Below, one piece after another: positions 456-60,385 of a DNA stretch of 64,000 bases. The stretch's first letter is position 1. Each line of letters opens with the position of its first letter. Both the position numbers and the translations under genes were made by a program. The notes beneath the pieces are model-generated. The model worked only from the letters and a program-made list of their open reading frames with translations. It was not told the DNA's origin and ran no database searches. Origin of the DNA: Corynebacterium tuberculostearicum (lineage in GTDB: Bacteria; Actinomycetota; Actinomycetes; Mycobacteriales; Mycobacteriaceae); assembly GCF_030503735.1 (NCBI RefSeq), contig NZ_CP073096.1:1612001-1676000 (forward strand), given 5' to 3'.

Positions 456-1592
456 GTGACTATCCTCTCCCCGCTTCCGGTTGATCCGCACGCCCCGGCC
501 GCTATCCTCCCGGATTTGGAGGCCGCCATTGCTGGCCAAGGCTGCTTTTTGCCGCTCCCGCTTGCCGACGCCACCCGCGCCACCCTCCTGCGCAATACCC
601 AACGCGCCGGCGAGCCCATCGATCCCAGCATCGCCCTGGTGATGTCCACCTCTGGCTCCACCGGCACGCCGAAAGGCGCGCAGCTTACCCCGGCAAACCT
701 CGTAGCTAGCGCGGATGCCACCCACCAGGTGCTCGGCGGCACCGGCCAGTGGCTGCTGGCCATGCCGGCCCACCACATCGCCGGCATCCAGGTATTGGTG
801 CGCTCGCTGGTGGCGGGCGTCGATCCGCTATGCATGGATCTCAGCGAGGGCTTCGATATCCCTACCTTTGCCCGCGCGGCCGCAGAGCTCGACCGCACCG
901 GGGACCGCACCTATACCGCGCTGACCCCGCTGCAACTGGCCAAGGCCATGGATTCGGTCGAAGGCATTGACGCCCTGCGCACTTTCGATGCCATCCTGGT
1001 CGGCGGCGCGGCCATCAACCCGCGCCTGCGCACAGCGGCCGAGGAGCTGGGCATTGCAGTAGTGGCGACGTATGGATCCTCCGAAACCGCCGGTGGCTGC
1101 GTCTACGATGGTAGGCCGATTCCCGGAGCCCAGGTGCGCGTCCAGGACGGCCGCATCCTCTTAGGCGGGCCCACCATCGCCCAGGGATACCGCAATGCGC
1201 CCGAGCACGAGGCATTCCGCCAACCGGGTTGGTTTGCCACGTCCGACGGCGGCTTTATCGACGCCGGCACCCTCACCGTCACCGGCCGGCTGGATAACGT
1301 CATCGACTCCGGCGGTCTCAAGCTTCACCCCGAGGCGCTAGAAACCGAAATCCTCAAGGTCAAGGGCGTGGACCATGCCTGCGTGGTCGGCGTCCCACAC
1401 CCACGCCTCGGCCAGGCGATTATGGCGGCGTATACCGGCTGGGCCGATATCGGCGATATCCTCGAAGCCCTCGAAGACGCCGAGCTTCCCCGCTGGCAGA
1501 TTCCCAAAGACATCAAGCGCCTCGCGGAATTTCCCACGGCCGGGCCAGGCAAAATAGACCGCCGGGCGGTGGCGCGCATCTTCGGCGCTTAG
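456..1592 (+). CDS. menE: o-succinylbenzoate--CoA ligase (MenE)
   Basis: MenE activates o-succinylbenzoate with ATP and CoA, the step before MenB. It is a short member of the acyl-adenylate family, 378 residues. The AMP-binding motif TSGSTGTPKG is at residues 65-74, YGSSETAGG is in the middle, and the C-terminal domain ends PGKIDRRAV with the catalytic lysine. I chose the GTG at 456. An upstream in-frame start at 345 would run through the overlapping membrane peptide and give an atypical Cys/Arg-rich leader. The gene contains one exact copy of the repeated 12-mer at 561-572 (encoding LADA). It converges with mntR and overlaps it by four bases. Confidence 0.9.
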   Translation: MTILSPLPVDPHAPAAILPDLEAAIAGQGCFLPLPLADATRATLLRNTQRAGEPIDPSIALVMSTSGSTGTPKGAQLTPANLVASADATHQVLGGTGQWLLAMPAHHIAGIQVLVRSLVAGVDPLCMDLSEGFDIPTFARAAAELDRTGDRTYTALTPLQLAKAMDSVEGIDALRTFDAILVGGAAINPRLRTAAEELGIAVVATYGSSETAGGCVYDGRPIPGAQVRVQDGRILLGGPTIAQGYRNAPEHEAFRQPGWFATSDGGFIDAGTLTVTGRLDNVIDSGGLKLHPEALETEILKVKGVDHACVVGVPHPRLGQAIMAAYTGWADIGDILEALEDAELPRWQIPKDIKRLAEFPTAGPGKIDRRAVARIFGA

Positions 1593-2272
1593 CCACCTTC
1601 CACGTCGCGCACCGCGATATCGCGCGCCGCGGATTCACCGAGGGAAAAACTGGCTCCATTATCCACGCTGACCTCTAGGAGGCCGGCTACCGGCGGGGCA
1701 ACGACGGTCAGCCGCACGCCCGGCCGAACCCCGTGTTTGTCCAAGTAGCGCAGGAATTCGCCATCGGCGTCATTGACCTGTTCCATAGTGACGGGAGAGT
1801 TGGGTGGGACGTCGGCAAGCGTAATGCGCGAGAGCGGCTCAGCCGTGCCATCGGCCGCCGGAATGGGATCGCCGTGGGGATCGCGCGCAGGGGCGCCGAG
1901 GAAAGCATCGATGCGCTCGACAAACCTATCGGAGGTCGCATGCTCTAGCATTTCGGCTTCCTCATGCACCTCGTCCCAGGTATAGCCCAAGATGCGTACC
2001 AAAAAGGTCTCGAGCAGGCGGTGGCGGCGCACCATGGCCACGGCCAATTCGCGACCTTCCCTGACCAGCCGGACGCCAAAGTAACGCTCGTGTTCCACGA
2101 GTCCCTTGGCTGCGAGGCGCTTGACGGCCTCGGAGGTGGTGGGCAGCTTCTGGCCGACAGCCTTAGCCAGATCACCAAGCGGCATGGCGGTATCGCGTCC
2201 CGCCTTTTCCTCATGGTTCCACAAAATCTTGAGGTAGTCCTGGGTGCGTTCGGGCAGCTCGCTTACGTGCAT
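1589..2272 (-). CDS. mntR: DtxR-family manganese-responsive repressor (MntR-type)
   Basis: This 227-residue protein has the three DtxR/IdeR parts: an N-terminal winged helix (about 1-70), a metal-binding and dimerisation domain (about 75-140) and a C-terminal SH3-like domain (about 150-225). The metal motif reads E107-M-L-E110-H111. In DtxR the first position is Cys102, whereas manganese-specific MntR of Bacillus has Glu there, so the sequence points to manganese rather than iron. It is divergent from an importer operon and shares a perfect inverted repeat with it (2330-2349). The ATG at 2272 has a TATGAT box 7 nt upstream, so its transcript may be leaderless. Confidence 0.82.
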   Translation of the reverse strand: MHVSELPERTQDYLKILWNHEEKAGRDTAMPLGDLAKAVGQKLPTTSEAVKRLAAKGLVEHERYFGVRLVREGRELAVAMVRRHRLLETFLVRILGYTWDEVHEEAEMLEHATSDRFVERIDAFLGAPARDPHGDPIPAADGTAEPLSRITLADVPPNSPVTMEQVNDADGEFLRYLDKHGVRPGVRLTVVAPPVAGLLEVSVDNGASFSLGESAARDIAVRDVEGG

Positions 2273-2279
2273 TCACCCC

Positions 2280-2285
2280 ATCATA
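2280..2285 (-). promoter_or_regulatory. predicted -10 box of mntR (leaderless type)
   Basis: On the minus strand TATGAT ends 7 nt before the mntR ATG. This is the spacing expected when transcription begins at or next to the start codon, a common arrangement in corynebacteria. Confidence 0.5.
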
Positions 2286-2329
2286 GTTCATCCTATTGCT
2301 TCCATGAGTTTCAATATGTATGTTTCTAG

Positions 2330-2349
2330 AAGTTCACTACATTGAACTT
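2330..2349. promoter_or_regulatory. MntR-type operator between mntR and mntA
   Basis: A perfect inverted repeat with 7-base arms, AAGTTCA and TGAACTT, is separated by 6 bases. The core GTTCA-N6-TGAAC is the same as in the manganese-regulator site I recall for Corynebacterium glutamicum MntR. It lies 32 bp upstream of the mntA start and 58 bp from the mntR start, so one site could control both directions. Confidence 0.7.
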
Positions 2350-2380
2350 TGGTATTCATTTCTAATTTAAGGACTTTTCG

Positions 2381-3301: not shown

Positions 3302-4011
3302 TGCTGCGCGCCACCCACCTCACCGCAGGCTATCCGCGCACGCCCCTGCTTGCCGACGCCACCTTTGCCCTCACTCCCGCCACCATCACCGGCCTCGTGG
3401 GCGCCAACGGCTCCGGCAAGTCCACCCTTGTGCGCACCTTGGTGGGCTTGCTTCCACCGCTTAACTGCGAATCGCTCACCTTTGATGGCACCAACCTTGC
3501 CCATTTCCGCCATCGGCTCGGTTACATGCCGCAGCACGCGGATATCGATTGGGATTTTCCGGCCACGGCCTTCGACGTCGCGCTTATGGGCCGCACCGCC
3601 GGCCTGCGCTGGTGGCAGTGGCCGAGCCGCGTCGATAAGCGCGCCGCTCACGACGCGCTCGCCCGCACCGGAATGCAAGAGCACTCGCACCTGCCCATTT
3701 CGGCCTTGTCCGGCGGCCAGCGCCAGCGTGTCTTACTCGCTCGCACGCTCGTGAGCGATCCCGAGCTCATTATCTTGGATGAGCCCTTTGCTGGGGTCGA
3801 CGCCGCAAGCCAGCGCGCCATCATGGAGGTACTGCAGAATCTGCGCGCCGATGGCGCCACCATCCTGCTGGTCCATCACAACTTGGCAGAAGTCGCCGAT
3901 TTCTGTGATGAGGTCCTCATGGTAGGCCAAGGCCGCCTCATCGCGGCCGGGCCTACTAAGCAGGTGCTCACCGAATCCGCCATCGCCGACATGTTTTGCC
4001 TGCCCTCATGA
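3301..4011 (+). CDS. mntB: ABC importer ATP-binding protein (Mn/Zn family)
   Basis: The 236-residue ATPase powers metal uptake by the MntA/C/D complex. Walker A is GANGSGKST at residues 34-42, the ABC signature LSGGQRQRV is at about 137-145, Walker B LIILDEP is at about 157-163, and the switch histidine lies in LLVHHNL. The length is normal for the family. It starts inside the mntA stop (TAATG) and ends in an ATGA overlap with the next permease. An exact copy of the repeated 12-mer (3349-3360) encodes LADA in the first strand region. Confidence 0.9.
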   Translation: MLRATHLTAGYPRTPLLADATFALTPATITGLVGANGSGKSTLVRTLVGLLPPLNCESLTFDGTNLAHFRHRLGYMPQHADIDWDFPATAFDVALMGRTAGLRWWQWPSRVDKRAAHDALARTGMQEHSHLPISALSGGQRQRVLLARTLVSDPELIILDEPFAGVDAASQRAIMEVLQNLRADGATILLVHHNLAEVADFCDEVLMVGQGRLIAAGPTKQVLTESAIADMFCLPS

Positions 4012-7258: not shown

Positions 7259-7515
7259 GAATCCTTCGGCACGAAGCGCATCTCCAAGCCGAGGGCCTCG
7301 GCCACGGCGGTAATCTTTTCCCACCGCACGCCCGCTCCACCGTGCTCGATGGTGTGGAGGGTGGAGCGGGAGATACCGGCGGCGTCGGCAAGCTGCTGCT
7401 GCAAAATGCCCAACTCGCGGCGGCGCTCGGCAAATTGTGCGCCCAGCCCCAAAATCACCGCATTATCGCCAGCCGGCTTTCCCTGCTTATGACGCGGGCT
7501 CGTATGCTCCGCCAT
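7255..7515 (-). CDS. XRE-type helix-turn-helix regulator
   Basis: An 86-residue protein consisting of one Cro/C1-type helix-turn-helix (about 24-80): LGAQFAERRRELGILQQQLADAAGISRSTLHTIEHG in two parts, then a recognition helix and a short tail. Its ATG directly follows the ccsB stop (TAGATG), so it is cotranscribed with the cytochrome c genes and may be translationally coupled. Its target is not evident. It carries an exact copy of the repeated 12-mer at 7381-7392 (encoding LADA). Confidence 0.8.
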   Translation of the reverse strand: MAEHTSPRHKQGKPAGDNAVILGLGAQFAERRRELGILQQQLADAAGISRSTLHTIEHGGAGVRWEKITAVAEALGLEMRFVPKDS

Positions 7516-8535
7516 CTAATTCAGCCCCGCGTAGGAGTGCAGGCCGGAGACCACCATGTTAATGAAGAAGAGGTTGAAGACCATCAGCGCCATCGCCATG
7601 ACGTTGATCCACGGCGCCGCCTTGCGGAAGGCCGGCGTCGCACGCGCATGCAGGTATGCGGCATACAGGATCCAGGTGGCAAAGGACACGGTCTCCTTCG
7701 GGTCCCAGCCCCAGAAGCGGCCCCAGGCGGACTCGGCCCAGATGGCACCCAAGATGATGCCCAGACCCAAGGTCGGCAGGGTGATAACAGCCAGGCGGTA
7801 GGCCAGCTGGTCAATCTTCGCGGCAGAAGGCAACGGGCGGGCTACAGCACCGAGGAGGCCATGCTCGGCATGCTTTGGCTGTGCCATACGCAAAAGAGTC
7901 AGCAGCGAGACAATGCCGGAGATAATACCGATGGACGCGCCCAAGGAAACCACGGTGACGTGGATAGGCAGCCAGTGCGACTGCAGCGCCGGCACCACCG
8001 GGGCAGACTCGGCATAGAGCTTGGTGGATCCATAAAACATTAGCGCCAGCACCGGGGTGAGCAGCCATGGCCACACGGTGCGCCACTCCTTGCGCTGCAT
8101 GGCCATATTGCCCACCAGCAGCACACCGAAGCTCACCATCAACACGTACTCGTACAGGTTGCCAAATGGGAAGCGGCCGGTAGCCAGGCCGCGCAGCACA
8201 ATCGCCGCGGCGTGCAGCGCAATACCTACCCACATCAGCGCGCTGGTCATGCCGCCGAGCTTATCGGCCTTGCGCTCCTTTTCCTTCAGCTCATCGGCCG
8301 TGATTCCGGAAGAGGACTGGGCAACCTCACCCTCATAGCTTTGCTTGTCGACGCCCCCAGCGCCCGCACCCACCAAGACCTTCGCGGCTTGGGACTTCAC
8401 GGCGCGGCGGCCCTCAATAATGCCCTGCATGCGTCCGTAGTAAAACAGCGACAAAAAGAGCGCGACGCAGTACACCACAAAGGCGGTCTGTACCGCGATA
8501 TCTGAGAAATTAGACAGATTCTGATCGATCTGCAT
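7516..8535 (-). CDS. ccsB: cytochrome c biogenesis protein CcsB (ResC/CcsA type)
   Basis: The 339-residue membrane protein forms, with ResB, the system II haem handling and attachment complex for c-type cytochromes. The tryptophan-rich haem-binding motif is visible as WGRFWGWDPKE near residue 270, with flanking histidines (LHARATPAFRK downstream and HVTVV upstream). About six to eight hydrophobic segments are present. The start is ATG with AGGAG upstream. A long soluble loop follows the first helix. The gene is separated from resB by 95 bases containing a palindrome. Confidence 0.9.
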   Translation of the reverse strand: MQIDQNLSNFSDIAVQTAFVVYCVALFLSLFYYGRMQGIIEGRRAVKSQAAKVLVGAGAGGVDKQSYEGEVAQSSSGITADELKEKERKADKLGGMTSALMWVGIALHAAAIVLRGLATGRFPFGNLYEYVLMVSFGVLLVGNMAMQRKEWRTVWPWLLTPVLALMFYGSTKLYAESAPVVPALQSHWLPIHVTVVSLGASIGIISGIVSLLTLLRMAQPKHAEHGLLGAVARPLPSAAKIDQLAYRLAVITLPTLGLGIILGAIWAESAWGRFWGWDPKETVSFATWILYAAYLHARATPAFRKAAPWINVMAMALMVFNLFFINMVVSGLHSYAGLN

Positions 8536-10269: not shown

Positions 10270-11073
10270 CTAAATCAGGGTTGCGCCAAAGTTGCCTGTC
10301 CACTGGCGGATGAGGCTGATGAACTCGCCCCACAGGCCGGTTACCAGGGCCAAGCCGACGAGGATCATGGCCACGCCGCCGATTATCTGGATGGTATGCG
10401 AGTGCTTGCGCGCCCACGAAATCGTGCGCATCGCCCGCGCAGACCCCAGCGCCACCAGAAGGAACGGCAGGCCCAAGCCCAGGCAATAAAAGATGATGAG
10501 CAGCACGCCGCGCGCGGCCGTCATTCCCTCGGTGCCGGCCGATACGGACATAATGGCGGCCAGCGTTGGCCCCAGGCACGGCGTCCAGCCCAGCGCGAAT
10601 ATCCCGCCAAGCAGGGGCGCACCCAGCCAAGTAGTCCAGCGCTTCGGAGCCATGCGGGTGTCCTTCTGCAGCGCCGGAATCGCGCCCAAGAAGACCACGC
10701 CCATCAGGATGGTCACGCCGCCGCCGATGCGCATGAGCATTTCCTCATTGAGCCGGAGCGCGGAAATTGCGCCGAATACGGAGACCGTCGCCAGCAGGAA
10801 AACCACGGTGAAGCCTAGGATAAACAGTGCGGATGCAAGGACAACGGCCCATTGCCTGCGCTTGCCGACGCCCACTCCCAACTCACCGTCAAACGTAACC
10901 TCGCCGCCCACCACGCCGGCCAGGTAGGAAATATAGCCGGGCACCAGCGGGATCACGCATGGGCTGGCGAAGCTCACCAACCCCGCCAGGGCGGCCGCGA
11001 GCAGGCCCAAAATAAGTGGGCCGGAGGTCGCGGCCTCGGCAAAGGTAGTGCCGATGCTCGCTGCGTTGTCCAT
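10270..11073 (-). CDS. ccdA: CcdA-like thiol-disulfide transmembrane protein
   Basis: The 267-residue membrane protein of the DsbD/CcdA family passes reducing power across the membrane to ResA so that apocytochrome c cysteines stay reduced. Two conserved cysteine sites are visible in FASPCVIPLVPGYISY near residue 37 and GWTPCLGPTLAA near residue 160, each a Cys-Pro or Pro-Cys at a helix start. Six hydrophobic segments are expected and seen. The gene starts immediately after the resA stop. An exact copy of the repeated 12-mer (10861-10872) lies in the loop, here reading GVGK rather than LADA. Confidence 0.9.
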   Translation of the reverse strand: MDNAASIGTTFAEAATSGPLILGLLAAALAGLVSFASPCVIPLVPGYISYLAGVVGGEVTFDGELGVGVGKRRQWAVVLASALFILGFTVVFLLATVSVFGAISALRLNEEMLMRIGGGVTILMGVVFLGAIPALQKDTRMAPKRWTTWLGAPLLGGIFALGWTPCLGPTLAAIMSVSAGTEGMTAARGVLLIIFYCLGLGLPFLLVALGSARAMRTISWARKHSHTIQIIGGVAMILVGLALVTGLWGEFISLIRQWTGNFGATLI

Positions 11074-12301: not shown

Positions 12302-13603
12302 TTAGTGTGCGGGACGCGCGGCGGCCGCAGCCTGGGCGGCGGGTTTGAGGGCGGCTTCGATGAGTTCAAAGTCGGCGTCGTTAAGCGCATCCGAGACAAA
12401 CCAGGTCTCAAATGGGCTCGGCGCGACGTAGATGCCGTTATCCAGCAGGGCGTGGAAGAACGGGGTGAAGCGGAAGGTCTCGGCCGCCTGCATATCGGCA
12501 AAGTTGCGGCCCTCGCCCTCGGCAAAGCGGATGGAGAACATCGAGGACGCGCGCTGGATATGGTGCGCTACGCCCTCGGCCGACAGCGCGGAGGATATCA
12601 TGCCGGTCAAGCGGTCCGCGTTGGCCTGCAGGCGCTCGTAGAGCGATTCATCGGCCAGCTCCAAAGACTTCAAGCCGGAGGCCATTGCCACCGGGTTTCC
12701 GGATAGCGTACCTGCCTGATAGACCGGCCCTTCCGGCGCAAGGTAGTCCATGACTTCGGCGCGGCCACCGAAGGCAGCGGCCGGCAGGCCACCGGAGACG
12801 ACCTTGCCAAAGGTCACCAGGTCCGCCGCCACGCCGTCGACGCCGTACCAGCCCTTATAAGAGGTGCGGAAGCCGGTCATGACCTCGTCGAGGATAAGGA
12901 GGGCGCCGTCTTCATGGGCGACGTCGGCAAGCGCGGCGTTGAAGCCCTCCGCCGGAGCCACGGTACCCATATTGCCGGCCGAGGCCTCCGCAATAATGCA
13001 GGCAATCTCGCCGGGGTTCTGCGCAAATGCCTCGCGCACGGCCTCGATATCGTTATAAGGAACAACGATAGTATCGGCCGCCGTCGCACCCGTCACGCCC
13101 GGAGAATCCGGCAGCGCAAAGGTCGCCACACCGGAACCGGCCGAGGCCAAAAGCGCATCCACATGGCCGTGGTAGCAACCCTCAAACTTCAGCACCTTGG
13201 CGCGGCCGGTGTAGCCGCGGGCCAGGCGCACCGCAGACATGGTGGCCTCGGTGCCGGAGTTGACCATGCGCACCTTATCGGCCGCGGTGCGCGACACAAT
13301 GGCCTCCGCAAGCAAAGCCTCACCCTCGGTGGGCGAGCCAAAGCTCAAACCGCCCGCAGCCGCCTTCTGCACGGCCTCCACAATCTCCGGGTGGGCGTTG
13401 CCGTGAATCATCGGGCCATAGGAACTGACCAGGTCAACGTACTCATGGCCGTCAACGTCCCACAGGCGCGAGCCCGCGCCGCGCTCAATCACGCGGGCCT
13501 GACCACCCACGGAGCCAAACGCGCGCACCGGCGAGTTCACCCCGCCCGGAATCACCTTGGAGGAACGCTCAAACCACTGTTGCGACTGGGAAGTATTAGG
13601 CAT
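12302..13603 (-). CDS. hemL: glutamate-1-semialdehyde 2,1-aminomutase
   Basis: HemL converts glutamate-1-semialdehyde to 5-aminolevulinate using pyridoxal phosphate, the second step of the C5 haem pathway after HemA. The PLP lysine lies in [11 protein letters not shown], the Asp in [12 protein letters not shown], and [13 protein letters not shown] is the phosphate region. I chose the ATG at 13603 (433 residues), because a TAGAAT box ends 7 nt upstream. The ATG at 13612 would overlap that box. The start of the downstream cytochrome c genes in the same direction suggests one haem/cytochrome c unit. Confidence 0.93.
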
Positions 13604-13644: not shown

Positions 13645-13710
13645 CTGCGCGATTCACAGTGAGCCGCTAAACTTCGGGGCGTTGCACTTTTCAATTCGGG
13701 GGGATTTTCC

Positions 13711-14205
13711 ATGCAGCGCACTCTCATTTTCGCCATCCTGGCCGCTTTCTGCCTCGCCGGCTGCGCCCATCCCGAGCGGCCGCTGCCTACCTCGGTGGGT
13801 GCCACACCGCTTGCCGACGCCCCCTCGTGGCAACCCCCTCCCCGTCCGCTCACCCCGCGCGATCTGCCGAGTAAGGACCCGTCCCCTCCTCCGCCTCCGG
13901 CCGCGGAGCCTTCGTCGACGGACGCGGCGCCTGCTCCCGCGCCCGGACCTGCTTCGCATCCTGGCCCGACGCCCGCACCCCAGCAGCGGCCCGCACCTGC
14001 ACCTGCACCGGCACCCCGCCCGCAACCTGCGGCGCCGGCTCCGCGCCCGCCCGCGCGGGATAAAAGCGGCCTGCCAAACCTGAATATCCCGCCTCACGAG
14101 GTCCGCGGGCGCATCGAGGACGCGGTGCCTGATGTGCCCGCCGTGCCTGCGCCCGCCCCGCCGGAGTTGCCGCTGCCGCCCGCGCCGCGCATTCCGGGCC
14201 GCTAG
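13711..14205 (+). CDS. proline-rich lipoprotein
   Basis: 164 residues. The signal peptide ends in lipobox LAGC with Cys18, and the mature part is very rich in Pro and Ala (repeated PAPAPAP and PPPPP runs), with a short more ordered stretch (DKSGLPNLNIPPHEVRGRIEDAVPDV) in two pieces near 115-140. A strong GGGGGGA ribosome site lies 9 nt upstream. It probably spans the wall or periplasm; the function is unknown. It contains an exact copy of the repeated 12-mer at 13810-13821. It converges with sugE, overlapping by four bases. Confidence 0.7.
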   Translation: MQRTLIFAILAAFCLAGCAHPERPLPTSVGATPLADAPSWQPPPRPLTPRDLPSKDPSPPPPPAAEPSSTDAAPAPAPGPASHPGPTPAPQQRPAPAPAPAPRPQPAAPAPRPPARDKSGLPNLNIPPHEVRGRIEDAVPDVPAVPAPAPPELPLPPAPRIPGR

Positions 14206-15586: not shown

Positions 15587-16657
15587 ATGACAGCTCTTCA
15601 GACTTATCTCGCGGCCTTGGCGCCCGGCATCGACATCGTTGCCGGGTGCGTCGGCATGTCTGAAGACCAGCTGCGCGCCGCCGGGGCGCCCAATAAGACG
15701 GCCCGCACCTTGCTCACGCTTGCCGACGCCCTCTTTGCCCCCACCTCCTTTACCCGCCTCCAACGCCAGGCGGTTACCGCCGCCCGCGACCGCGCCCACC
15801 CACTGCCCACGCTGGAGGTCATCGAGCGCTACGCTTCCCGCGCCAAGACCAAGCGCGATGCCTGGCGCCTGCGCGTGGAGCTATGCCGCACCGCCGCCGA
15901 TACCGATGAGATGGAAAAGCTGGCGCGCAAGAAGCTGCGCGAGCTCAATCCCCCAGCCCCGCCGCGCCCCGGCGTGCGCATCCGCCGCCGCAAGGACGCG
16001 CCGTGGACCCTCGCGATTACCGGGCCATCCTCGCTCATCGCTGACCTGGAATCCAGCCTGGACGAGGACGCGCCCCTCGACTCCGTTGCGGAGCTCTTCT
16101 CCCCTTCCGGCGCCGCCCCAGTCTCCCGTCCGACCATTACGACGAATGCGATCATCACGCTCGACGAGCTCGACCGCATCATCGACGGCGACGGCGAAGA
16201 AATCACCATCCAGCTCACCAACGGTGCCCGCATCACCGGCACGGAACTCGTCTCGCGCACGCTGGCAGAGCGCGGCCTTATCACCCTCGTTCACCCCTTC
16301 GAGGGCGCAGTCAACCTCTATCGCACGGAGCGCATGGCCAGCGAAAAACAGCGGCTCATGGCTGCTGCCGAAAATCCGGTGTGCCCGTGGCTGGAGTGCA
16401 ACTACCCGGCGGATAAATGCCAAGTGCACCACTTGCAGGCGTGGCGGCACGGCGGCAATACCAATATGGCAAACCTCGCCACCTGCTGCCCGTACCACGA
16501 CGGCGTCAACGACGACGATCCAAATGCCCCGCCGATCCGCGGGCGTCTCGTGCGGCGCCGAGGTCGCGTGGTGTGGCAGCCACCATGGGCCGATCCCGCA
16601 CCGGCTCCCAGCCCGGATGCGCCCGTTCCGCCGGCCCCGGCGGATCCCCAGCTCTAA
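15587..16657 (+). CDS. HNH endonuclease domain protein (DUF222-like)
   Basis: 356 residues. A helical N-terminal part typical of actinobacterial DUF222/13E12-type proteins is followed by an HNH nuclease domain (about 265-310). In that domain VCPWLECN and CQVHHLQAWRHGGN carry the Cys and His residues, and CCPYHDGVND completes the zinc/metal site. The C-terminus is proline-rich. Such genes are numerous and often variable between actinobacterial strains, and their role is unsettled. An exact copy of the repeated 12-mer is at 15719-15730. A hairpin terminator follows at 16676. Confidence 0.82.
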   Translation: MTALQTYLAALAPGIDIVAGCVGMSEDQLRAAGAPNKTARTLLTLADALFAPTSFTRLQRQAVTAARDRAHPLPTLEVIERYASRAKTKRDAWRLRVELCRTAADTDEMEKLARKKLRELNPPAPPRPGVRIRRRKDAPWTLAITGPSSLIADLESSLDEDAPLDSVAELFSPSGAAPVSRPTITTNAIITLDELDRIIDGDGEEITIQLTNGARITGTELVSRTLAERGLITLVHPFEGAVNLYRTERMASEKQRLMAAAENPVCPWLECNYPADKCQVHHLQAWRHGGNTNMANLATCCPYHDGVNDDDPNAPPIRGRLVRRRGRVVWQPPWADPAPAPSPDAPVPPAPADPQL

Positions 16658-18184: not shown

Positions 18185-19219
18185 TTAGCCCTCCTCGTGG
18201 ATGATGGATACGGCGCGGGTGATTGCCTCCGCGTCGGTAGTTGGCAGGACCCCGTGGCCAAGGTTCCAGATATGGCCGTCGATATCGCCGCGCTCGCGGG
18301 CCCTATCGACCTCGCTGCGGATGGTGCGCACGGCCTGGCGCACGGCGTCGTTGCCGGCAAAAAGCATGGCCGGGTCGAGGTTGCCCTGCAGCACGCGGGC
18401 ACTCACGCGCTCGGCCGCGGCGTCCATGGGCACGCGATAATCGACGCCCATTACTTCCGACCCCGCCTCCGACATGGCCGGCAGTAGCTCGCCGGTGCCG
18501 ACGCCGAAGTGGATGCGTGGAATCTCCACGCCGGCCAGGATTTCCCGCGAGTACGGCAGTACGAACTCGCGGTAGTCGCGCTCGTTGAGGTATCCGGCCC
18601 AGGAATCAAAGAGTTGCATGGCATCGATGCCGGCGTCGACCTGCACCTGCAGGAAGCGGGTGATGGTCGGCACTAGGCGGCGCATGAGCATGTGCCAGGT
18701 CTCCGGATCGGCATGCATGAGGGCCTTGGTGCGCTCGTGGTTCTTGGATGGCCCGCCCTCGATGAGGTAGCTGGCCAGCGTGAACGGCGCGCCAACGAAG
18801 CCGATGAGTGCTTGGGTGTCGGTGAGCTCGGCCAGGATGCGGGCAATGCCTTCGGTGACCTCGGGGACGTCGGTCTCTAGCTGCGGCAGCTTGCCGACGT
18901 CCTCCCTACTCCTTACCGCCTGCTCCATCACCGGCCCGCGACCCGGCACGATATCGACCTTGACGCCCGCGGCCTTAAGCGGGACGACGATATCGGAGAA
19001 TAAAATGGCGGCGTCGACGTCGTGGCGGCGCACCGGCTGCAGTGTAATCTCGGCCAGCAGCTCAGGCATGAAGCAAGAATCGAGCATGCTAATCCCCTCG
19101 CGGGCGGCGCGGTACTCCGGCAGCGAGCGGCCGGCCTGGCGCATGAACCAAACTGGGGGGCGGGAGGGGGTGCGGCCGAGGGCGGTGTCGATAAGCGGGG
19201 CACGATTGAGTCGAGACAT
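18185..19219 (-). CDS. hemE: uroporphyrinogen decarboxylase
   Basis: HemE removes four acetate carboxyls from uroporphyrinogen III to form coproporphyrinogen III. The 344-residue protein has the family signatures PPVWFMRQAGRSLPEYR and GFVGAPFTLASYLIEGG in its N-terminal half. I used the ATG at 19219, because a CATAAT box ends 6 nt upstream, which gives a leaderless start; the frame is open to 19237. The gene therefore seems to have its own promoter in addition to readthrough from hemB. Confidence 0.94.
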   Translation of the reverse strand: MSRLNRAPLIDTALGRTPSRPPVWFMRQAGRSLPEYRAAREGISMLDSCFMPELLAEITLQPVRRHDVDAAILFSDIVVPLKAAGVKVDIVPGRGPVMEQAVRSREDVGKLPQLETDVPEVTEGIARILAELTDTQALIGFVGAPFTLASYLIEGGPSKNHERTKALMHADPETWHMLMRRLVPTITRFLQVQVDAGIDAMQLFDSWAGYLNERDYREFVLPYSREILAGVEIPRIHFGVGTGELLPAMSEAGSEVMGVDYRVPMDAAAERVSARVLQGNLDPAMLFAGNDAVRQAVRTIRSEVDRARERGDIDGHIWNLGHGVLPTTDAEAITRAVSIIHEEG

Positions 19220-28822: not shown

Positions 28823-28834
28823 GGCATCGGCAAG
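28823..28834 (+). repeat. near copy of the repeated 12-mer (GGCATCGGCAAG)
   Basis: One mismatch to GGCGTCGGCAAG. It lies between genes, beside the hairpin CCCCGG/CCGGGG at 28796-28824, seven bases before the stop codon of the next minus-strand gene. Confidence 0.5.
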
Positions 28835-43438: not shown

Positions 43439-44554
43439 CTACTCGTCGAGGGCGAGACCGATCCACACGGGTTCGGGCACGAGCTCCACGCCGAAGGCCT
43501 CACGAACGCCGTCGCGGATGGTGCGCGCAAGGTCCACGATATCGGCGGCCGTGGCCTCGCCGCGGTTGGTCAGCGCCAGCGTGTGCTTCGTCGAGAGCGT
43601 GGCACGGCCAGAGCCCGGGTAGCCCTTAGCAAACCCGGCGCGGTCAATGAGCCAGGCAGCGGACAACTTTTCCCGGCCAGTCTCGGCAGAGGGGTGGCGG
43701 GGCATGGAGTCTGCGGTGGCGTTGCCAAGCGTGGCACGGACCTTGGTCTGGACGGCGTCGGCAAGAGCGGAGTCCACCACCGGATTGGTAAAGAAAGAGC
43801 CGGCGGACCAGGTGTCATGGTCGGTGGGGTCGAGCACCATCCCCTTGCCGCGGCGGAGCTTTAAGACCTCCTCGCGGACCTCGGCCACGGGGCGGCGCTC
43901 GCCCGGATTCTGGGTGAGCTGGCCAAAGCGCAGCGGGCGGGAAAGGCCCTCGGTATCGAGCTGCAGCTCCACCTCAAGGACCACGGCGCGGCCGGTGAAT
44001 TTCAGGTTGGAATAGCGATACGCCAGCTCCAGATCGGAGGCGGGAACCCATTCATCGCTATCGGTGCGGCGGTTATAAAGGCGCACGCGGGTAAGGACCT
44101 CAGAGATCTCCGCGCCATAGGCACCCACATTCTGCACGGGGACCGCGCCCACGGTGCCGGGGATACCAGAGAGGCACTCGATGCCACCCAGGCCGAGCTG
44201 CACGGAACGGGCCACCACGTCATCCCAGACGGCGCCCGCCTGCGCGCGCACCACGCCAGTGTCGGTGTCCATGGAGACCTCGTCAAAGTCAAGGATGACC
44301 GCGACGAGGTCCACGGCACCATCGGCCACCAGGAGGTTGGAGCCGCCGCCGACGACTATGATCTTCACCTCGGCCCGATCTAGGGCACGGATGACGTCCA
44401 CGGCGGCTTCGGGCTGCGAGCAGCGCAGCGCGGCCTGCGGTTTTCCGCCCACACGCAGCGTAGTCAGATCCGCAAAGGTGGCGGTGGAATCCAGTTCCAC
44501 GCCCTCGATCGCTGTGAGCTGTTGCGTCAAAGATTTATCAAGCACGCCTACCAA
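43439..44554 (-). CDS. murB: UDP-N-acetylenolpyruvoylglucosamine reductase
   Basis: MurB reduces enolpyruvyl-UDP-GlcNAc to UDP-MurNAc for peptidoglycan. FAD-binding motifs are VVGGGSNLLVADG (about 75-87) and GIPGTVGAVPVQNVGAYG, with the catalytic Ser in SAGSFFTNPVV and Glu near the C-terminus. The length of 371 residues fits the actinobacterial form. The start is uncertain between TTG at 44554 and GTG at 44545. It is divergent from the DUF2505 gene and contains an exact copy of the repeated 12-mer at 43754-43765. Confidence 0.93.
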   Translation of the reverse strand: MVGVLDKSLTQQLTAIEGVELDSTATFADLTTLRVGGKPQAALRCSQPEAAVDVIRALDRAEVKIIVVGGGSNLLVADGAVDLVAVILDFDEVSMDTDTGVVRAQAGAVWDDVVARSVQLGLGGIECLSGIPGTVGAVPVQNVGAYGAEISEVLTRVRLYNRRTDSDEWVPASDLELAYRYSNLKFTGRAVVLEVELQLDTEGLSRPLRFGQLTQNPGERRPVAEVREEVLKLRRGKGMVLDPTDHDTWSAGSFFTNPVVDSALADAVQTKVRATLGNATADSMPRHPSAETGREKLSAAWLIDRAGFAKGYPGSGRATLSTKHTLALTNRGEATAADIVDLARTIRDGVREAFGVELVPEPVWIGLALDE

Positions 44555-45081: not shown

Positions 45082-45894
45082 ATGGCCGACCACGCACATA
45101 ATCTGCGCGCCAGCGCAGCTGCGGGTCGGCCTTTTGGCGTTATTACGCGCGGTACCACCAACCACAACCGGCTGCGCCGCTGCGATAGGTGGATGCTCGC
45201 GCACCCGGAGATTTCCGCGCTGCTGCGGCATGTAGATACCCCGCTGGCGCTCGACGTGGGCTACGGGGCCTCGCATGCGACCACCGTGGAGTGGGCGGGG
45301 TGGCTGCGCCGGGTGAATCCACAGGTAGACGTGCGCGGGTTAGAGATCCACCCGGATCGGGTGCTGCCGCCGCGCGATGGCGTGCGCTTCGAGCTGGGCG
45401 GTTTCGAGCTGGCCGGCTACCGGCCGCAGCTGGTCCGAGCATTCAATGTGCTGCGCCAGTATGACGTGGACCAGGTGGAAGAGGCCTGGCAGACGGTGTG
45501 CTCCCGGCTCGCCCCGGGCGGCTTCTTTGTGGAGGGCACTTGCGATGAGCTCGGCCGGCGCGCGGCCTGGTTGCTGCTGGATGCCCACGGTCCGCGGACA
45601 CTCACCCTGGCGTGGGACCCGTTCGATGTGGCGCGCCCCTCTGATATTGCCGAGCGCTTGCCCAAAATCCTCATCCACCGTAATGTGCCCGGCGAGCCCA
45701 TCCACGAGTTGCTTAAGGCCGCCGACAAGGCTTGGGACCACGCGGCGGGGTGGGCGCCCTACGGCCCGCGCGTGCGCTGGCGCATGGCAAGAGCCGCGCT
45801 TGCCGACGCCCCCTTTAATATCCACGCCGTCCGCCGGCGCCTGCGCGATAATGTGCTCACCGTGGACTGGGAATCGGTGGCGCCGCAGAGCTAA
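45082..45894 (+). CDS. class I SAM-dependent methyltransferase
   Basis: A 270-residue protein with a Rossmann-like methyltransferase core: motif I ALDVGYGASHATTVEWAGWL near 55-75, acidic motif II VDVRGLEIHPDRV, and motif IV/V AFNVLRQYDVDQVEEAW with APGGFFVEGTCDE. The substrate is unknown. It lies 20 bases after the DUF2505 gene and is probably cotranscribed. An exact copy of the repeated 12-mer at 45799-45810 encodes LADA. Confidence 0.8.
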   Translation: MADHAHNLRASAAAGRPFGVITRGTTNHNRLRRCDRWMLAHPEISALLRHVDTPLALDVGYGASHATTVEWAGWLRRVNPQVDVRGLEIHPDRVLPPRDGVRFELGGFELAGYRPQLVRAFNVLRQYDVDQVEEAWQTVCSRLAPGGFFVEGTCDELGRRAAWLLLDAHGPRTLTLAWDPFDVARPSDIAERLPKILIHRNVPGEPIHELLKAADKAWDHAAGWAPYGPRVRWRMARAALADAPFNIHAVRRRLRDNVLTVDWESVAPQS

Positions 45895-48147: not shown

Positions 48148-49494
48148 CTAAGCACCAAAGATGAGGTGATTGATCGCGAATATCACCAATCCTGCCAGGG
48201 AACCGACGATAGTGCCGTTCAAACGAATAAATTGCAGGTCCTTGCCCACCATGAGCTCGATATTTTGGGAGGCTTCCTCCGCATCCCAGCGCTTGATGGT
48301 CTCCGGGATAATAGCGATAATTTCCGGCGCGAATTTCTCCACCGCGTAGCGCGCGGCCTTATCCACGAGCGCATTGCCCTGGGCCAAGAATTCGGAGTCC
48401 TCGAGCAGACGGTGCGCCAACTCCTTTACCTTCGCCGTAATCTTCTGCCGCAGGAACGACTCCCGGTCATTGAGCTGGTCAATGAGCGTGGTAGAGACCG
48501 TGCGCCACATGGCCGCCGGTGCCTGCTGGGCTTGGTCGGAGGCGAGCATTTCTTGCTTGATTCCCTCGATGCGCCCGCGCATGTCCGCATCCCACTGCAG
48601 GTCTGAGGCTAGTTTGGACAGGTTGCGGCGAATGGCCAAGCGGGCCTCGTGGTTACCATTGCGGCGCACCTCATCGGCGAATTCCACGAGCTCGGTATAG
48701 ACCTTCTCCCCCACCATCTCGCGGGCAAAGCGCGGCGCCCAGCCCGGCATGCGCTCATCGATGGCGGTGACCACTGTGGGCTCCATGCTCAGAATCTTGC
48801 CGTGCGCCCACTCGATGAGGTCATCCTCCAACGGACGGGCCTTGCCATCTTCAATATAGCCCTCCAGCAACCTGCCCAGCGGCGGGCCCCATTCCGGCTC
48901 GGCTAGGCGGTCCATGACTTGGGTGCGGATGAATTGCTCTGCTTCTTCGGGGTCCAAATCCGACACCACGCTGGCGGCACGCTCTCCAATCCATGCGGAC
49001 ACCTCCTCCGCCTTGCCGGGCTCCACCCCTTGGCGCGCCAGCCATAGCGGCAACTCCGCCTCCCGCACCTTGGCGCTAAGCGCATCCGCGGTAAGGAAGT
49101 TCTCCTCCACAAAGTCCTTCAAGGCATCGCCCACGCGGTCCTTATTATTCGGAATCAGCGCCGTATGTGGGATGGGCAGTCCCATGGGCCGGCGGAAGAG
49201 CGCGGTGACCGCAAACCAGTCCGCCAGCCCGCCCACCATGCCGGCTTCTGCCGCCGCTCGGACGTAGCCCACCCACACAGGTGCCCCGCTTTCCGACGCC
49301 TGCCACCACGAACACCCCAAAAAGATCACCGCCGCACCAATCAGGAACGACAGCGCAATCGCCTTCCACCGGCGCAGGTCCGCCCGCCGGGCCTCCTGGT
49401 TACCGGCCTGCGGCACGGAAGCGGCACCCGACGATGTCGGCTCCGGTGCCGATGCCGTATCCGTTTCGAGGCCTTCGTCCGCGCGGTGCGTCAT
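48148..49494 (-). CDS. DUF445 family membrane protein
   Basis: 448 residues. A hydrophilic start (about 1-40) precedes two N-terminal hydrophobic segments (ALSFLIGAAVIFLGCSW and GMVGGLADWFAVTALF), a long helical domain (about 110-400) and a C-terminal membrane helix (NGTIVGSLAGLVIFAINHLIF). The GGLADWFAVTALFRRPMGLPIPHTALIP motif, shown here in full only by its ends, is diagnostic of DUF445. The function is unknown. It is the head of the four-gene minus-strand run to the DeoC-like gene. Confidence 0.85.
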   Translation of the reverse strand: MTHRADEGLETDTASAPEPTSSGAASVPQAGNQEARRADLRRWKAIALSFLIGAAVIFLGCSWWQASESGAPVWVGYVRAAAEAGMVGGLADWFAVTALFRRPMGLPIPHTALIPNNKDRVGDALKDFVEENFLTADALSAKVREAELPLWLARQGVEPGKAEEVSAWIGERAASVVSDLDPEEAEQFIRTQVMDRLAEPEWGPPLGRLLEGYIEDGKARPLEDDLIEWAHGKILSMEPTVVTAIDERMPGWAPRFAREMVGEKVYTELVEFADEVRRNGNHEARLAIRRNLSKLASDLQWDADMRGRIEGIKQEMLASDQAQQAPAAMWRTVSTTLIDQLNDRESFLRQKITAKVKELAHRLLEDSEFLAQGNALVDKAARYAVEKFAPEIIAIIPETIKRWDAEEASQNIELMVGKDLQFIRLNGTIVGSLAGLVIFAINHLIFGA

Positions 49495-52611: not shown

Positions 52612-52881
52612 AACCATAAAGCATATAAGCCCACGCATCTAATGCCTGCCAAGGCAGGCGCTTTGGACCACTTCCCTACCGCAGGGGGCTGTGAATAGCC
52701 TGCGAAAAATGCAGTACACAGACCATTCACCCTGCTATTTCGCCTGGCCTCCTGCTTGTCCACCCACACTTGCACGGCCCCAAGAGCAGCAATCAAAACA
52801 ACAGTGAGGAGGGGGCGTCGGCAAGTGCTGTTTAAAGCAATGAAATGTTGGCGCCTTCTTGGGTCTTTGGCGGTCGATATG
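52612..52881. other. gene-free stretch between the RM pseudogene and the sdh terminator
   Basis: 270 bases with no believable gene; the longer frames over it have biased, non-membrane, non-conserved-looking products. It should contain the former RM promoter (TATGCT ends 8 nt before the ATG at 52611) and an exact copy of the repeated 12-mer. Confidence 0.5.
52814..52825 (+). repeat. intergenic exact copy of the repeated 12-mer GGCGTCGGCAAG
   Basis: It is preceded by the purine run GAGGAGGG, as at several other copies. It is not in any gene, so codon usage does not explain it. Confidence 0.7.
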
Positions 52882-57235: not shown

Positions 57236-57254
57236 CTTTGCAAGATCTTTGCGA
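57236..57254. promoter_or_regulatory. candidate RamB autoregulatory site
   Basis: CTTTGCAAG and CTTTGCGA lie two bases apart, about 40 bases upstream of the ramB start. RamB sites contain TTTGCAAA-like cores, and RamB is known to repress its own gene in C. glutamicum. Confidence 0.4.
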
Positions 57255-57282
57255 TTAGGGTGCACACCCGCAGGCCAGCCAG

Positions 57283-57288
57283 TAACCT
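57283..57288 (+). promoter_or_regulatory. predicted -10 box of ramB (leaderless type)
   Basis: TAACCT ends 7 nt before the ATG at 57296. Confidence 0.4.
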
Positions 57289-57295
57289 TGCCGGC

Positions 57296-58705
57296 ATGAG
57301 TAAGACGTATGTGGGATCCCGCCTTCGCCAGCTTCGCCGTGAGCGCGATCTCAGTCAGGCTTCCCTTGCTGCGACGCTGGGGCTCTCTGCCAGCTACGTC
57401 AATCAGATCGAGCACGACGTCCGCCCGCTCACTGTCCCGGTGCTCCTGCGCATCACGGAAGTCTTCGGCGTCGATGCCACCTTCTTCTCCCGTGACGATG
57501 ACTCCCGCCTTCTTGCCGAGATCCAGGACGTCATCCAGGACAAGGAGCTCTGCCCCTCCCCTGTCGAGCTGCAGGAGCTCTCCGAGCTGGTCTATAACCA
57601 CCCCACCGTGGCCCGCACGCTGGTAGACGTCCACCGCCGCTACCGCAATGTGCGCGATAAGCTCTCGCTGGCCACCGATGCCCGCCGCACCACCGAGGCC
57701 ACCCAGGCCCTATCCATGCCGCACGACGAGGTGCGCGACTTCTTCTACGCTCGCCAAAACTACTTGGACGATTTGGACCACCATGCAGAGCAGCTTGCCG
57801 ACGCCCTCTCGGTCACCCAATTCGGCATCCGCGACACCGAACACGCCCTGGCCCAGCGCCTGCGCGATCGCCACAATGTTGATATCCACATCACTTCACA
57901 AATGGATGGCACGTTGCACAGCTTTGACCGCGAGACCCGCGAGTTCCGGCTCGCCTCGCGCTTGAGCGAAGGCCAGCGCGCCTTCCGCATGGCCGCGGAG
58001 CTGAGCTTCCTTGAGGCCGGGGAGGACATCGCCGCCCTAGTGGAGGAGGAGCCGTTTACCTCGGACGCCTCGCGTAACCTGGCCCGACGCGGATTGGCCA
58101 GCTACTTCGCCGCCGCCACCGTAATGCCCTATGCACTGATGCATTCCGAAGCCGAGCGCTCGGGCTACGACGTAGAATACCTCTGCCAGGTCTTCGGCGT
58201 GGGCTATGAATCCGTCGCCTCCCGCCTGTCCACCCTGCAGCGCGATAACCTGCGCGGCATTCCTTTTACCTTTGTCCGCGTCGACCGCGCCGGAAACATG
58301 TCCAAGCGCCAATCCGCCACCGGCGTGCACTTTTCCAATAATGGCGGCACCTGCCCGCTGTGGAATGTCTACGAGACCTTCACCCAGCCCGGCATTATCT
58401 CCCGCCAGCTGGCCCAAATGCCCGATGGCCGCAACTACCTGTGGATTTCACGTGCCGTCCAGCACCACCAGGGGCGTTTTGGCGATACCGATAAGCTCTT
58501 CGCCATTGGCCTAGGCTGCGAAGCCCGCCACGCCGACCGCACCGTCTACGCCGAGGGGCTCGATCTCAGCGATCTCTCCTCGGCCACCCCCATCGGCTCC
58601 GGCTGCCGCACGTGCCCGCGCGAGAACTGCGCGCAACGCGCCTTCCCACCCATCAACGAGGTCATCAACGTCGATGCCCACCGCTCCGCCGTGGCACCGT
58701 ACTAA
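57296..58705 (+). CDS. ramB: acetate-metabolism regulator RamB
   Basis: A 469-residue regulator of the ScfR type: helix-turn-helix at about 8-62 ([21 protein letters not shown]), an IrrE/ImmA-like middle (about 160-290) and a C-terminal DUF2083 domain with [15 protein letters not shown]. In C. glutamicum RamB represses acetate and glyoxylate genes and lies next to sdhCAB and lpd exactly as here. I chose ATG 57296, 7 nt after TAACCT (leaderless type). In-frame GTG at 57227 would give a longer form. It contains an exact 12-mer copy at 57794-57805. Confidence 0.93.
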
Positions 58706-58790: not shown

Positions 58791-58808
58791 GGCGTCGCAC
58801 TCAAAGGC

Positions 58809-58820
58809 GACGTCGGCAAG
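58809..58820 (+). repeat. near copy of the repeated 12-mer (GACGTCGGCAAG)
   Basis: One mismatch to the main form. It lies between ramB and lpd, with its first bases inside a second small hairpin (GCGTCGC at 58792 pairing with GCGACGT). Confidence 0.6.
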
Positions 58821-58829
58821 CAGCCCTGC

Positions 58830-60242
58830 TTAGAGGTTAATCATGTGGCCGCCAATACCCTCGGCAGCTTCCTTCATGGCCTCAGAGAGGGTCGGGTGGG
58901 TGTGAACGTTGCGGCCGATTTCCTCAGCGGTGAGGTCGAAGCGCTGCGCCAGGGTCAGCTCTGGCAGCAGCTCGGAAACGTTGGAGCCCACCATGTGGCC
59001 GCCGATGAGCTCGCCGTATTCGCCGTCCGCGATGAGCTTGACAAAGCCCGCGGTCTCGTTCAGGCCGGCAGCCTTGCCATTAGCGGAGAACGGGAAGGTA
59101 GCGACCTTAATGTCGCGGTCCGCGAACTTCTCCTTGGCAGCCTCTTCGGTGTAGCCGAAGGAAGCGACCTGCGGGTTGCAGAAGGTAGCGCGCGGCATAT
59201 TCATGTAGTCGCCCAAAAGCTGGGTCTCCACGCCGGCGATGGTCTCTGCAGCCACAACGCCCTGGGCCTCAGCAACGTGGGCGAGCTGCAGCTTCGCGGT
59301 GACGTCACCGATGGCGTAGATGTGGTCGACGTTGGTGCGCATGGTGTCATCGATGGCGATGGCGCCGCGCTCGGTGAGCTCAACGCCGGTGTTCTCTAGG
59401 CCAAAGCCCTCGGTGCGCGGGGCGAAGCCGATGGAAATCATGGCACGGTCCACGGTAAGGGTATCCTGCTTGGAGCCGTCCTTGGACTCGACCTCAACGG
59501 TGACGTCACCGCCATTGTCCTTCACGGAGGTGGTCTTGTAGCCGGTCAGCAGCTTGACCCCCAGCTTCTTGTATTCCTTGGCAATGGCCTTGGAAACATC
59601 CTTGTCCTCATTCGGCAGGACGCGGTCCATGAACTCCACGATGGTGACGTCCACGCCGTAGTTTGCCAGCACGTAGGCAAACTCCATGCCGATGGCGCCG
59701 GCACCGACGATAACCATGGACTTTGGGGCCTCATCGTTGAGGATCTGCTCCTCGTAGGAGACGATGTTGCCGCCCAGCTCCACGCCCGGCAAGGACTTGA
59801 CCACGGAACCGGTAGCGATGATGCAGTCATCGAAAGTGACGGTCTTGCCCTTGTCATCGCCCTCGGTGATTTCGATGGTTTTATCGTCCTTGAAGGAGCC
59901 CAGACCGTTGATCTCGGTGATCTTATTCTTCTTCATCAGGTAATGAACGCCCTTGACGATGCCCGCGGAAACCTTGCGGGAACGCTTGTGGGCAGCACCG
60001 AAGTCGAAGGAGACATCGCCGGAGATGCCAAAGTCCTTGGCCTCATGGTTAAAGGTGTGGGCAACCTCAGCGTTCTTCAGCAGCGACTTGGAAGGGATGC
60101 AACCTACGTTGAGGCAGACACCGCCCCAGTACTGCTTCTCGATTACGGCAACTTTCTTACCAAGCTGAGCTGCACGGATGGCGGCCACGTAGCCGCCAGG
60201 GCCCGCGCCGAGTACTACTACGTCATAATGTTCATTAGTCAC
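58830..60242 (-). CDS. lpd: dihydrolipoamide dehydrogenase
   Basis: The 470-residue E3 flavoenzyme reoxidises lipoamide in the pyruvate and 2-oxoglutarate dehydrogenase complexes. The FAD motif [17 protein letters not shown] is at about 9-25, the redox pair is in [14 protein letters not shown], the NAD motif in [13 protein letters not shown], and the catalytic His-Glu in [14 protein letters not shown]. The GTG at 60242 is 7 nt after TATCCT, a leaderless arrangement; the frame is open upstream to 60335 but that leader is not E3-like. Confidence 0.96.
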
Positions 60243-60249
60243 GCCCTTT

Positions 60250-60255
60250 AGGATA
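60250..60255 (-). promoter_or_regulatory. predicted -10 box of lpd (leaderless type)
   Basis: The minus strand reads TATCCT, 7 nt before the GTG start of lpd. Confidence 0.5.
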
Positions 60256-60337
60256 CGTAACTTTCCCCTCCATGTCGCGCATTGGGCCACACTCCCTTGC
60301 CCGAGTACCCCACGCTTCGGGGGTAAAACGCACAAAG

Positions 60338-60385
60338 GCCCTGCACGGTGGCGTCGGCAAGCGCGCGACGCCCCCCACGCAGGGC
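60338..60385 (-). terminator. hairpin after the 36-residue gene, containing the repeated 12-mer
   Basis: Outer arms GCCCTGC and GCAGGGC, inner arms GGCGTC and GACGCC. On the minus strand CTTTGTGCGTTTT follows. The inner left arm is the start of the 12-mer copy at 60350-60361. Confidence 0.75.
60350..60361 (+). repeat. intergenic exact copy of the repeated 12-mer GGCGTCGGCAAG
   Basis: Its first six bases pair with GACGCC at 60367-60372, so this copy forms part of the terminator stem and the rest lies in the loop. Confidence 0.7.

Follow-up and report, generated by a model that had tools for sequence, protein, structure and literature searches.

An uptake-sequence-like DNA word with one-base dialects in the genus Corynebacterium

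The genome of Corynebacterium tuberculostearicum (2.50 Mb in 4 contigs, referred to as G000) contains numerous dispersed copies of the 12-mer GGCGTCGGCAAG. The word was first noticed in a 64-kb stretch of contig C1 (positions 1,612,001 to 1,676,000 of NZ_CP073096.1), which is called the window below and provides the numbering of all the copies that it contains. The word exists in related species in several forms, or dialects. GGCGTCGGCAAG (dialect A) differs from GGCATCGGCAAG (dialect B) by one base (G in A and A in B at position 3 counted from 0). We report here that selection acts on the DNA letters of the word and that the dialects, which differ by one base, change repeatedly on the phylogenetic tree, with many orthologous sites being kept. 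By analogy with known systems, the word resembles an uptake sequence and is probably read in trans by a sequence-specific factor, the most likely candidate being the combination of a Tad/Flp pilus with ComEA and ComEC.

Genome-wide enrichment and consensus of the word

The whole genome contained 179 exact copies of GGCGTCGGCAAG (87 and 92 on the two strands), in comparison to none on either strand for the reversed-pattern control. Background models were applied to an 864-kb sample comprising the window and 40 evenly spaced stretches of the same genome. Fifty-nine exact copies were found in this sample, versus 0.87 and 2.9 expected from order-5 and order-6 Markov models, respectively. GGCGTCGGCAAG had the top z-score among the 12-mers present in at least 25 copies, and the top 9- to 11-mers were overlapping pieces of the same motif. 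The enrichment that a first-pass annotation had noticed in the window therefore extends to the genome, where the 12-mer is far above codon and peptide expectations.

Counting single substitutions led to the 13-mer G-[G/a/c]-C-[G/a]-T-C-G-N-N-A-A-G-C, in which positions 1, 3, 5 to 7, and 10 to 12 are nearly invariant, whereas the two N positions are degenerate (the commonest pairs being G-C, A-C, A-T, G-A, and G-T). The degenerate motif is written GNCGTCGNNAAGC, and its most frequent form is GGCGTCGGCAAGC. A position weight matrix (PWM) search detected 468 sites in 800 kb, or 585 per Mb, versus 57 in simulated sequence, and near-copies were in excess, with a sum of 121 one-mismatch copies versus 51 exact 13-mers. 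A longer consensus, with a C after the 12-mer and a purine-rich left flank, had been proposed from the window. The following C was recovered at 86% of 256 degenerate sites versus 27% of 891 controls. The left flank was retained in part, as G was moderately enriched at positions −1 and −2 (~0.2 bit each over the control), the rest of the G-rich flank being largely accounted for by the codon-third-position period. Beyond the motif, the sequences flanking different copies were unrelated.

The GC skew of the genome flips near 0.73 and 1.86 Mb. Relative to replication, the leading strand carried 121 of the 264 degenerate sites of the 41 stretches (864 kb) and the lagging strand carried 143, extending to the genome the mixed orientation seen in the window. 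Chi and KOPS (FtsK-orienting polar sequences) are also short, genome-wide, nonpalindromic words with a trans-acting reader. Such sites are oriented with replication and are read by a trans-acting machine, whereas the Corynebacterium word has no orientation relative to replication. Thus, a polar segregation or architecture motif of the KOPS or AIMS (architecture imparting sequences) type is very improbable, even though the word is genome-wide and short, because the two strands are used about equally. The 121:143 distribution led us to reject replication polarity, including a Chi-type orientation bias.

Selection acts on the DNA letters of the word

Genes were delineated with a simple caller (coding fraction of 79.7% for the sample of the C. 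tuberculostearicum genome), which probably misses genes, so that the noncoding fractions are too high. Among the 59 exact copies, 48 were within called genes and 11 were outside. Forty-two of the genic copies encoded Leu-Ala-Asp-Ala (LADA), with the motif on the strand opposite the gene, 5 encoded GVGK along the gene, and 1 was in another frame. The coding frame deduced from the window, the occurrence of copies outside genes, and the description of CTT as an uncommon Leu codon (13.9% of Leu codons in long open reading frames [ORFs]) were all in agreement with these data.

A word that falls mostly in one frame and encodes a common peptide might be a by-product of codon usage, reflecting LADA encoded by preferred codons. 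This explanation has next to no probability. Dipeptide frequencies predicted 19 LADA tetrapeptides versus 53 observed, of which 42 were spelled CTTGCCGACGCC, although shuffling of synonymous codons within genes gave 1.02 on average (maximum of 5 in 100 shuffles) and CTT is a minor Leu codon. The choice of the Asp codon was as informative. GAC accounted for 49% of the Asp codons of G000, but CTT-GCC-GAY-GCC contained GAC in 29 cases and GAT in 2 cases, versus 21 and 24 cases, respectively, if GCC-GAY-GCC was preceded by a codon other than CTT. In G144, a genome in which dialect B prevails (see below), GAC accounted for 65% of the Asp codons, but CTT-GCC-GAY-GCC contained GAC in no case and GAT in 9 cases; GCC-GAY-GCC not preceded by CTT contained GAC in 5 cases and GAT in 10 cases. 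Since the choice of the Asp codon within the word opposes the usage of the genome itself in a lineage-dependent manner, the motif does not result from codon bias. Copies outside called genes, and those in other frames in genomes G156 and G056, also argue against a codon artifact, which we consider refuted by the codon shuffles in G000 and its relatives and by the Asp codon choice. Together, the excess of LADA, its single prevailing spelling, and the choice of the Asp codon indicate that the DNA word shapes codons and amino acids alike.

Distribution of the dialects

Exact counts of GGCGTCGGCAAG in 201 Corynebacterium genomes ranged from 0 (5 genomes) to 216, with at most 5 copies of the reversed control. 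Outside the genus, the counts were those of the 13-mer GGCGTCGGCAAGC and its control. A family search of 140 genomes from 30 other genera revealed 0 to 8 copies of this 13-mer, about the control level, except in genus g23, in which genomes G279, G292, and G315 contained 12 to 16 copies versus 0 to 1 for the control. Dialect B was high in 13 of the 201 Corynebacterium genomes (27, 37, 41, 53, 59, 82, 107, 157, 197, 218, 218, 237, and 448 copies), the last count being that of G053 (448 exact copies in 2.6 Mb). The number of dialect A copies did not exceed 15 in these 13 genomes, and that of dialect B copies did not exceed 19 in the other 188.

Additional forms were found by sampling 10 of the 200 relatives (160 kb each), of which 3 to 4 were without a clear motif. 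In G144, which has zero copies of the 12-mer, the top words were GGCATCGGCAAG and CATCGTCAAGC-like. In the genes of this sample, the A form was absent versus 2.8 copies after shuffling, whereas GGCATCG..AAG was present in 41 copies versus 2.5. Dialect B likewise encodes LADA, as CTTGCCGATGCC (9 of the 12 LADA in the G144 sample). The motif of G156 and G056 was CGTCGG-N-AAGC with a looser left end, the genic copies being also found in other frames. The motif of G033 and G066 consisted of GGCGTCG followed by A-rich DNA; it was weaker, yet above codon shuffles (23 versus 8.2 and 43 versus 12.3, respectively). In G010, TGGCGTCG[AG], which was likewise weaker, occurred 29 times versus 6.2 in codon shuffles, and the PWM approach provided no motif set. 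The forms present in G033, G066, and G010 were also above base shuffles outside genes. For G152, G163, and G084, no motif set was obtained at a 15% false rate with two or three seeds each. Types A and B are defined by genome counts, whereas looser A, C-type, and weaker T-type forms are defined by samples and codon shuffles, and a C-R-T-C-G core is common to all dialects seen. Stretches L143 to L150 of G033 also contained further high-copy 12-mers, such as CCGGGTGCTCCA (11 copies versus 0.07 expected), which probably belong to a separate repeat family.

Repeated dialect changes at conserved sites

The dialects were mapped on an RpoB tree, based on one gene and a quick search, for 30 picked genomes (12 A, 11 of the 13 B, and 7 with neither dialect). 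Dialects A and B were interleaved, B requiring 5 changes, of which at least 3 were forced by well-supported branches. In particular, G006 (dialect B) clustered with G000 and G004 (dialect A) at a support of 99. Dialect B was more clustered than shuffled labels, for which the mean was 9.2 changes, with 3 of 500 shuffles being as low.

The surroundings of 30 of the 218 dialect B sites of G006 were compared to the sampled pieces of G000, and 10 sites could be aligned, with flanks that were 24% diverged. At the dialect position, G000 had G in 8 cases, including 3 exact A copies (window copies 561, 15719, and 45799); the B spelling was found in 1 case, and no site was found in 1 case. Five of the 10 aligned sites are from the window, a stretch chosen for its many copies, but all 5 of those located outside show G in G000, and the 8-of-10 result was unchanged after dropping the G000 pieces fetched around A sites. 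The reverse count (3 of 4 A sites of G000 being exact B sites in G006) is not independent, since the pieces of G006 had been selected for their B sites, and the three pairs are already included in the preceding count.

Sites were present at 10 columns of rpoB, 9 of which were printed. The dialect base is synonymous at reverse-strand columns 2283, 3075, and 3216, and there G was found in 8 of 9 sites of A genomes and A was found in 12 of 14 sites of B genomes. Reverse-strand column 650, located in another codon frame, had A in both types of genomes, and its inclusion changed these figures to 8 of 12 and 13 of 15, respectively. At five forward-strand columns, where the base is amino acid changing, the dialect was not followed. 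For all columns, G was found in 31 of 45 sites of A genomes and A was found in 19 of 24 sites of B genomes. Between two A genomes, the four sites compared from G000 to G005 were all unchanged despite flanks that were ~10.6% diverged, and four of five were unchanged in the reverse direction.

Competence and Tad genes

The competence genes for which the first-pass annotation had recommended a search are present in the C. tuberculostearicum genome, which contains comEA-comEC and a tad-flp locus, and both the competence and the tad loci look complete as judged from their gene content. We take the order of the com locus to be nadD-rsfS-gpmB-degV-comEA-comEC-holA, several of these names being assumed, and that of the tad locus to be ssd-tadA-tadB-tadC-flp-tadE-tadF-like, with most names presumptive. 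ComEA has a helix-hairpin-helix domain and a weak SLBB match, and its gene adjoins comEC. ComEC is short (470 amino acids; L072:9167-10576), the Competence domain alone being found. ComEC ORFs of 476 residues were present in seven other motif-rich genomes, and ComEC was longer in many relatives, with up to 810 residues. The ComEA match of G006 (dialect B; G006:C1:1883988-1884674) contains one internal TGA. A gene for a D12-class N6-adenine DNA methyltransferase is located near comEA-comEC-holA (L072:12602-14768; G000:C1, ~96.6 to 98.8 kb) and adjoins a gene encoding DUF6996, DUF6997, and DUF7226 domains, with which it possibly forms a restriction-modification pair.

In the genus, all 201 genomes had ComEC, and 198 of them had a Tad-type ATPase (above the cutoff in 195). 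DprA was found in 41 of 41 genomes examined, a TadE match in 29 of 30, and a ComEA match in 30 of 30. A machinery that is universal in the genus fits the uptake of DNA, but its presence or absence has no power as a test.

Comparison with known uptake systems

We infer by analogy with Neisseriaceae, Pasteurellaceae, and Micrococcus luteus that the reader is an uptake machine. Like the DNA uptake sequences (DUS) of Neisseriaceae, which are read by the minor pilin ComP, the Corynebacterium word is short and nonpalindromic, is the top k-mer of its genome, occurs on both strands both in and outside genes, and shows the excess of one-mismatch copies described above. The differences are those of phylum, envelope, and pilus type (Tad/Flp), the unrelated sequence of the word, and the putative character of the uptake. 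To our knowledge, there is no ComP in the Tad/Flp system of Corynebacterium. Furthermore, exact copies are fewer here than for DUS, the dialects are partly off the phylogeny, and inverted-pair terminators were not found. A further likeness lies in one-letter dialects built on an invariant core, C-R-T-C-G here and CTG in the DUS described in excerpts of PMC3630211, which indicate that the lineage-specific DUS dialects of Neisseriaceae affect transformation.

The uptake signal sequences (USS) of Pasteurellaceae, as described in portions of PMC12616744, similarly consist of a 9-mer enriched genome-wide, with extended flanks and two dialects sharing invariant positions. The word itself is unrelated, and the two opposite USS that often form Haemophilus influenzae terminators, according to excerpts of PMC5217627, were not seen here. 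According to PMC12616744, a 2025 paper, the sorting of DNA by a short word at the binding step is known from no families other than Neisseriaceae and Pasteurellaceae. For the pilus, the closest parallel is the actinobacterium M. luteus, in which comEA and comEC occur together with Flp/Tad pili that are required for transformation (PMC6370729, in part). Uptake sequences are not mentioned in the corresponding sections of PMC6370729, and the transformation of Corynebacterium is putative.

In the mechanism that we propose, DNA containing the species' own word would be bound and imported preferentially and would then recombine into the chromosome. Preferential import and recombination would drive up the number of sites and maintain them, a process of molecular drive that has also been proposed for Neisseria and Haemophilus. 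If the specificity of the reader changed at one base, the sites would then follow one by one.

Evidence weighing against an uptake machine, and other readers

Several observations weigh against this mechanism. Exact copies amount to 71 per Mb, which is below classical sites (200 to 800 USS per Mb in portions of PMC12616744). A single adjacent inverted pair within 60 bp was found among 255 sites, with no inverted-pair terminators. The machinery genes are also present in G152, G163, and G084, for which no motif set was found, indicating that the genes do not predict the motif. The dialects are congruent with the phylogeny in part only, and they leak, since the 13 genic sites of G005 (dialect A) with an ortholog in G000 corresponded to 9 A-type sites, 3 B-type sites, and 1 place with no site in G000. 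Sites also turn over: the aligned G000 place was devoid of the full motif for 9 of 13 G144 sites and A-type for the other 4, and none of 11 sites of G156 and G056 was a site in G000. The uptake receptor is only putative. Finally, a search of the open-access literature, with most subscription papers and all preprints outside its scope, revealed no report of an uptake sequence or of natural transformation for Corynebacterium; in the available text of an unsupervised spaced-motif survey (PMC5217627), the genus is cited for CRISPR repeats only.

The interpretation of the word as an uptake sequence by the first-pass annotation withstood the refuting conditions set there (enrichment not exceeding codon and dipeptide expectations genome-wide, or absence between genes elsewhere). 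It is retained in part, for its genome-wide enrichment, copies outside genes, dialects, and competence genes but not for the pairing of copies in hairpins or terminators. Indeed, the intergenic hairpins considered to be a general feature were not recovered, as 35 noncoding sites folded no better than 60 random noncoding stretches (mean z of −0.42 versus −0.44). A general role in hairpins or terminators was rejected on the basis of this ordinary folding and the single inverted pair.

Instead of an uptake machine, the reader might be a cytoplasmic chromosome factor, the word being recognized by an end-processing nuclease in the manner of Chi, being bound by a nucleoid protein, or acting as a self-marker that protects the chromosome against a defense nuclease, and the dialects reflecting changes in this factor. 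Any trans-acting reader would explain selection at the DNA level, the invariant core, and one-base differences between orthologous sites, and the failure of the competence genes to separate motif-rich from motif-poor genomes is compatible with such a factor. However, the word has no strand polarity, unlike the oriented Chi, and an essential factor of repair or segregation would less readily account for repeated dialect changes within a clade. A factor with this specificity did not turn up, although no search was aimed at one. We regard a cytoplasmic reader as unlikely.

It is improbable that the copies are relics of a mobile repeat that dispersed or that the word is linked to restriction-modification. 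Small repeats can disperse, and the D12-class methylase gene is near comEC, but the flanks of the copies are unrelated, differences of a single base are found in place, and sites turn over between species, which led us to reject the dispersed repeat. A restriction site would be expected to be avoided, not enriched, and usual restriction sites are shorter than this word. Since the word persists while its places come and go, a reader acting in trans fits better than the descent of a repeat.

Copies of the word in the window

The 12 exact copies and the 6 one-mismatch copies reported by the first-pass annotation were all found at their positions, together with 7 one-mismatch copies that had not been listed (Table 1). 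Copies with no more than one mismatch total 25, versus 1.1 in dinucleotide shuffles, none of which reached 25 in 100 trials. The density of exact copies is higher in the window (12 in 64 kb) than in the genome (179 in 2.5 Mb), and the spacing of copies within the window is no more even than random (coefficient of variation of 0.90 versus 0.94).

Table 1. Copies of the word with at most one mismatch in the 64-kb window
Copy	Position	Strand	Context and remarks
Exact (dialect A)	561..572	-	Opposite strand of AMP-binding enzyme gene (ORF 345-1592 +); exact dialect B form at aligned G006 place
One mismatch, GACGTCGGCAAG	1808..1819	+	
Exact	3349..3360	-	Opposite strand of ABC transporter ATPase gene (3301-4011 +)
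Exact	7381..7392	+	Uncertain gene assignment: ORF 7342-8043 + without Pfam match; weak called frame 7255-7458 -
One mismatch, GGCGTCGACAAG	8344..8355	-	Not listed earlier
Exact	10861..10872	-	Same strand as called gene 10270-10956 - (longest ORF 10270-11073, without Pfam match)
One mismatch, GACGTCGGCAAG	12920..12931	+	
Exact	13810..13821	-	No called gene; within ORF 13654-14430 - (without Pfam match)
Exact	15719..15730	-	Opposite strand of gene with weak HNH match (ORF 15587-16657 +); exact dialect B form at aligned G006 place
One mismatch, GACGTCGGCAAG	18890..18901	-	
One mismatch, GGCGTCGGAAAG	20225..20236	+	Not listed earlier
One mismatch, GGCGTCGACAAG	21702..21713	+	Not listed earlier
One mismatch, GCCGTCGGCAAG	21778..21789	-	Not listed earlier
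One mismatch, GGCGTCGGAAAG	24482..24493	-	Not listed earlier
One mismatch, GGCGTCGACAAG	28215..28226	+	Not listed earlier
Dialect B spelling, GGCATCGGCAAG	28823..28834	+	Between called genes
Dialect B spelling, GGCATCGGCAAG	40325..40336	-	G006 also B there
Exact	40979..40990	-	Opposite strand of AMP-binding enzyme gene (39881-41410 +); next base G, not C; no site at aligned G006 place
Exact	43754..43765	+	Opposite strand of murB-like gene (43439-44554 -)
Exact	45799..45810	-	Opposite strand of ORF 45082-45894 + (without Pfam match); exact dialect B form at aligned G006 place
One mismatch, GGCGTCGGAAAG	49289..49300	-	Between called genes; not listed earlier
Exact	52814..52825	+	Outside called genes; within ORF 52347-52913 - (without Pfam match)
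Exact	57794..57805	-	Opposite strand of short-chain-acyl-CoA regulator gene (57227-58705 +)
One mismatch, GACGTCGGCAAG	58809..58820	+	Between called genes
Exact	60350..60361	+	Intergenic, upstream of pyridine-nucleotide disulphide oxidoreductase gene (58830-60335 -)

Possible implications for DNA exchange in Corynebacterium

There is about an even chance that a few related dialects compete in a Tad/Flp-pilus uptake system of the Gram-positive genus Corynebacterium, which would lie outside Neisseriaceae and Pasteurellaceae, and that one-base flips of reader specificity between related species, with the orthologous sites following, provide a fast-changing barrier to exchange between close relatives. 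If the uptake machine is indeed the reader, word-based self-recognition of DNA would have evolved again, with another pilus. These bacteria would be predicted to transform naturally when given DNA containing the right word, which would offer a practical route for their transformation, and comparisons between related species that differ in dialect would enable the receptor to be identified. Even with a reader other than the uptake machine, the data point to an unrecognized genome-wide DNA reader with a changing specificity.

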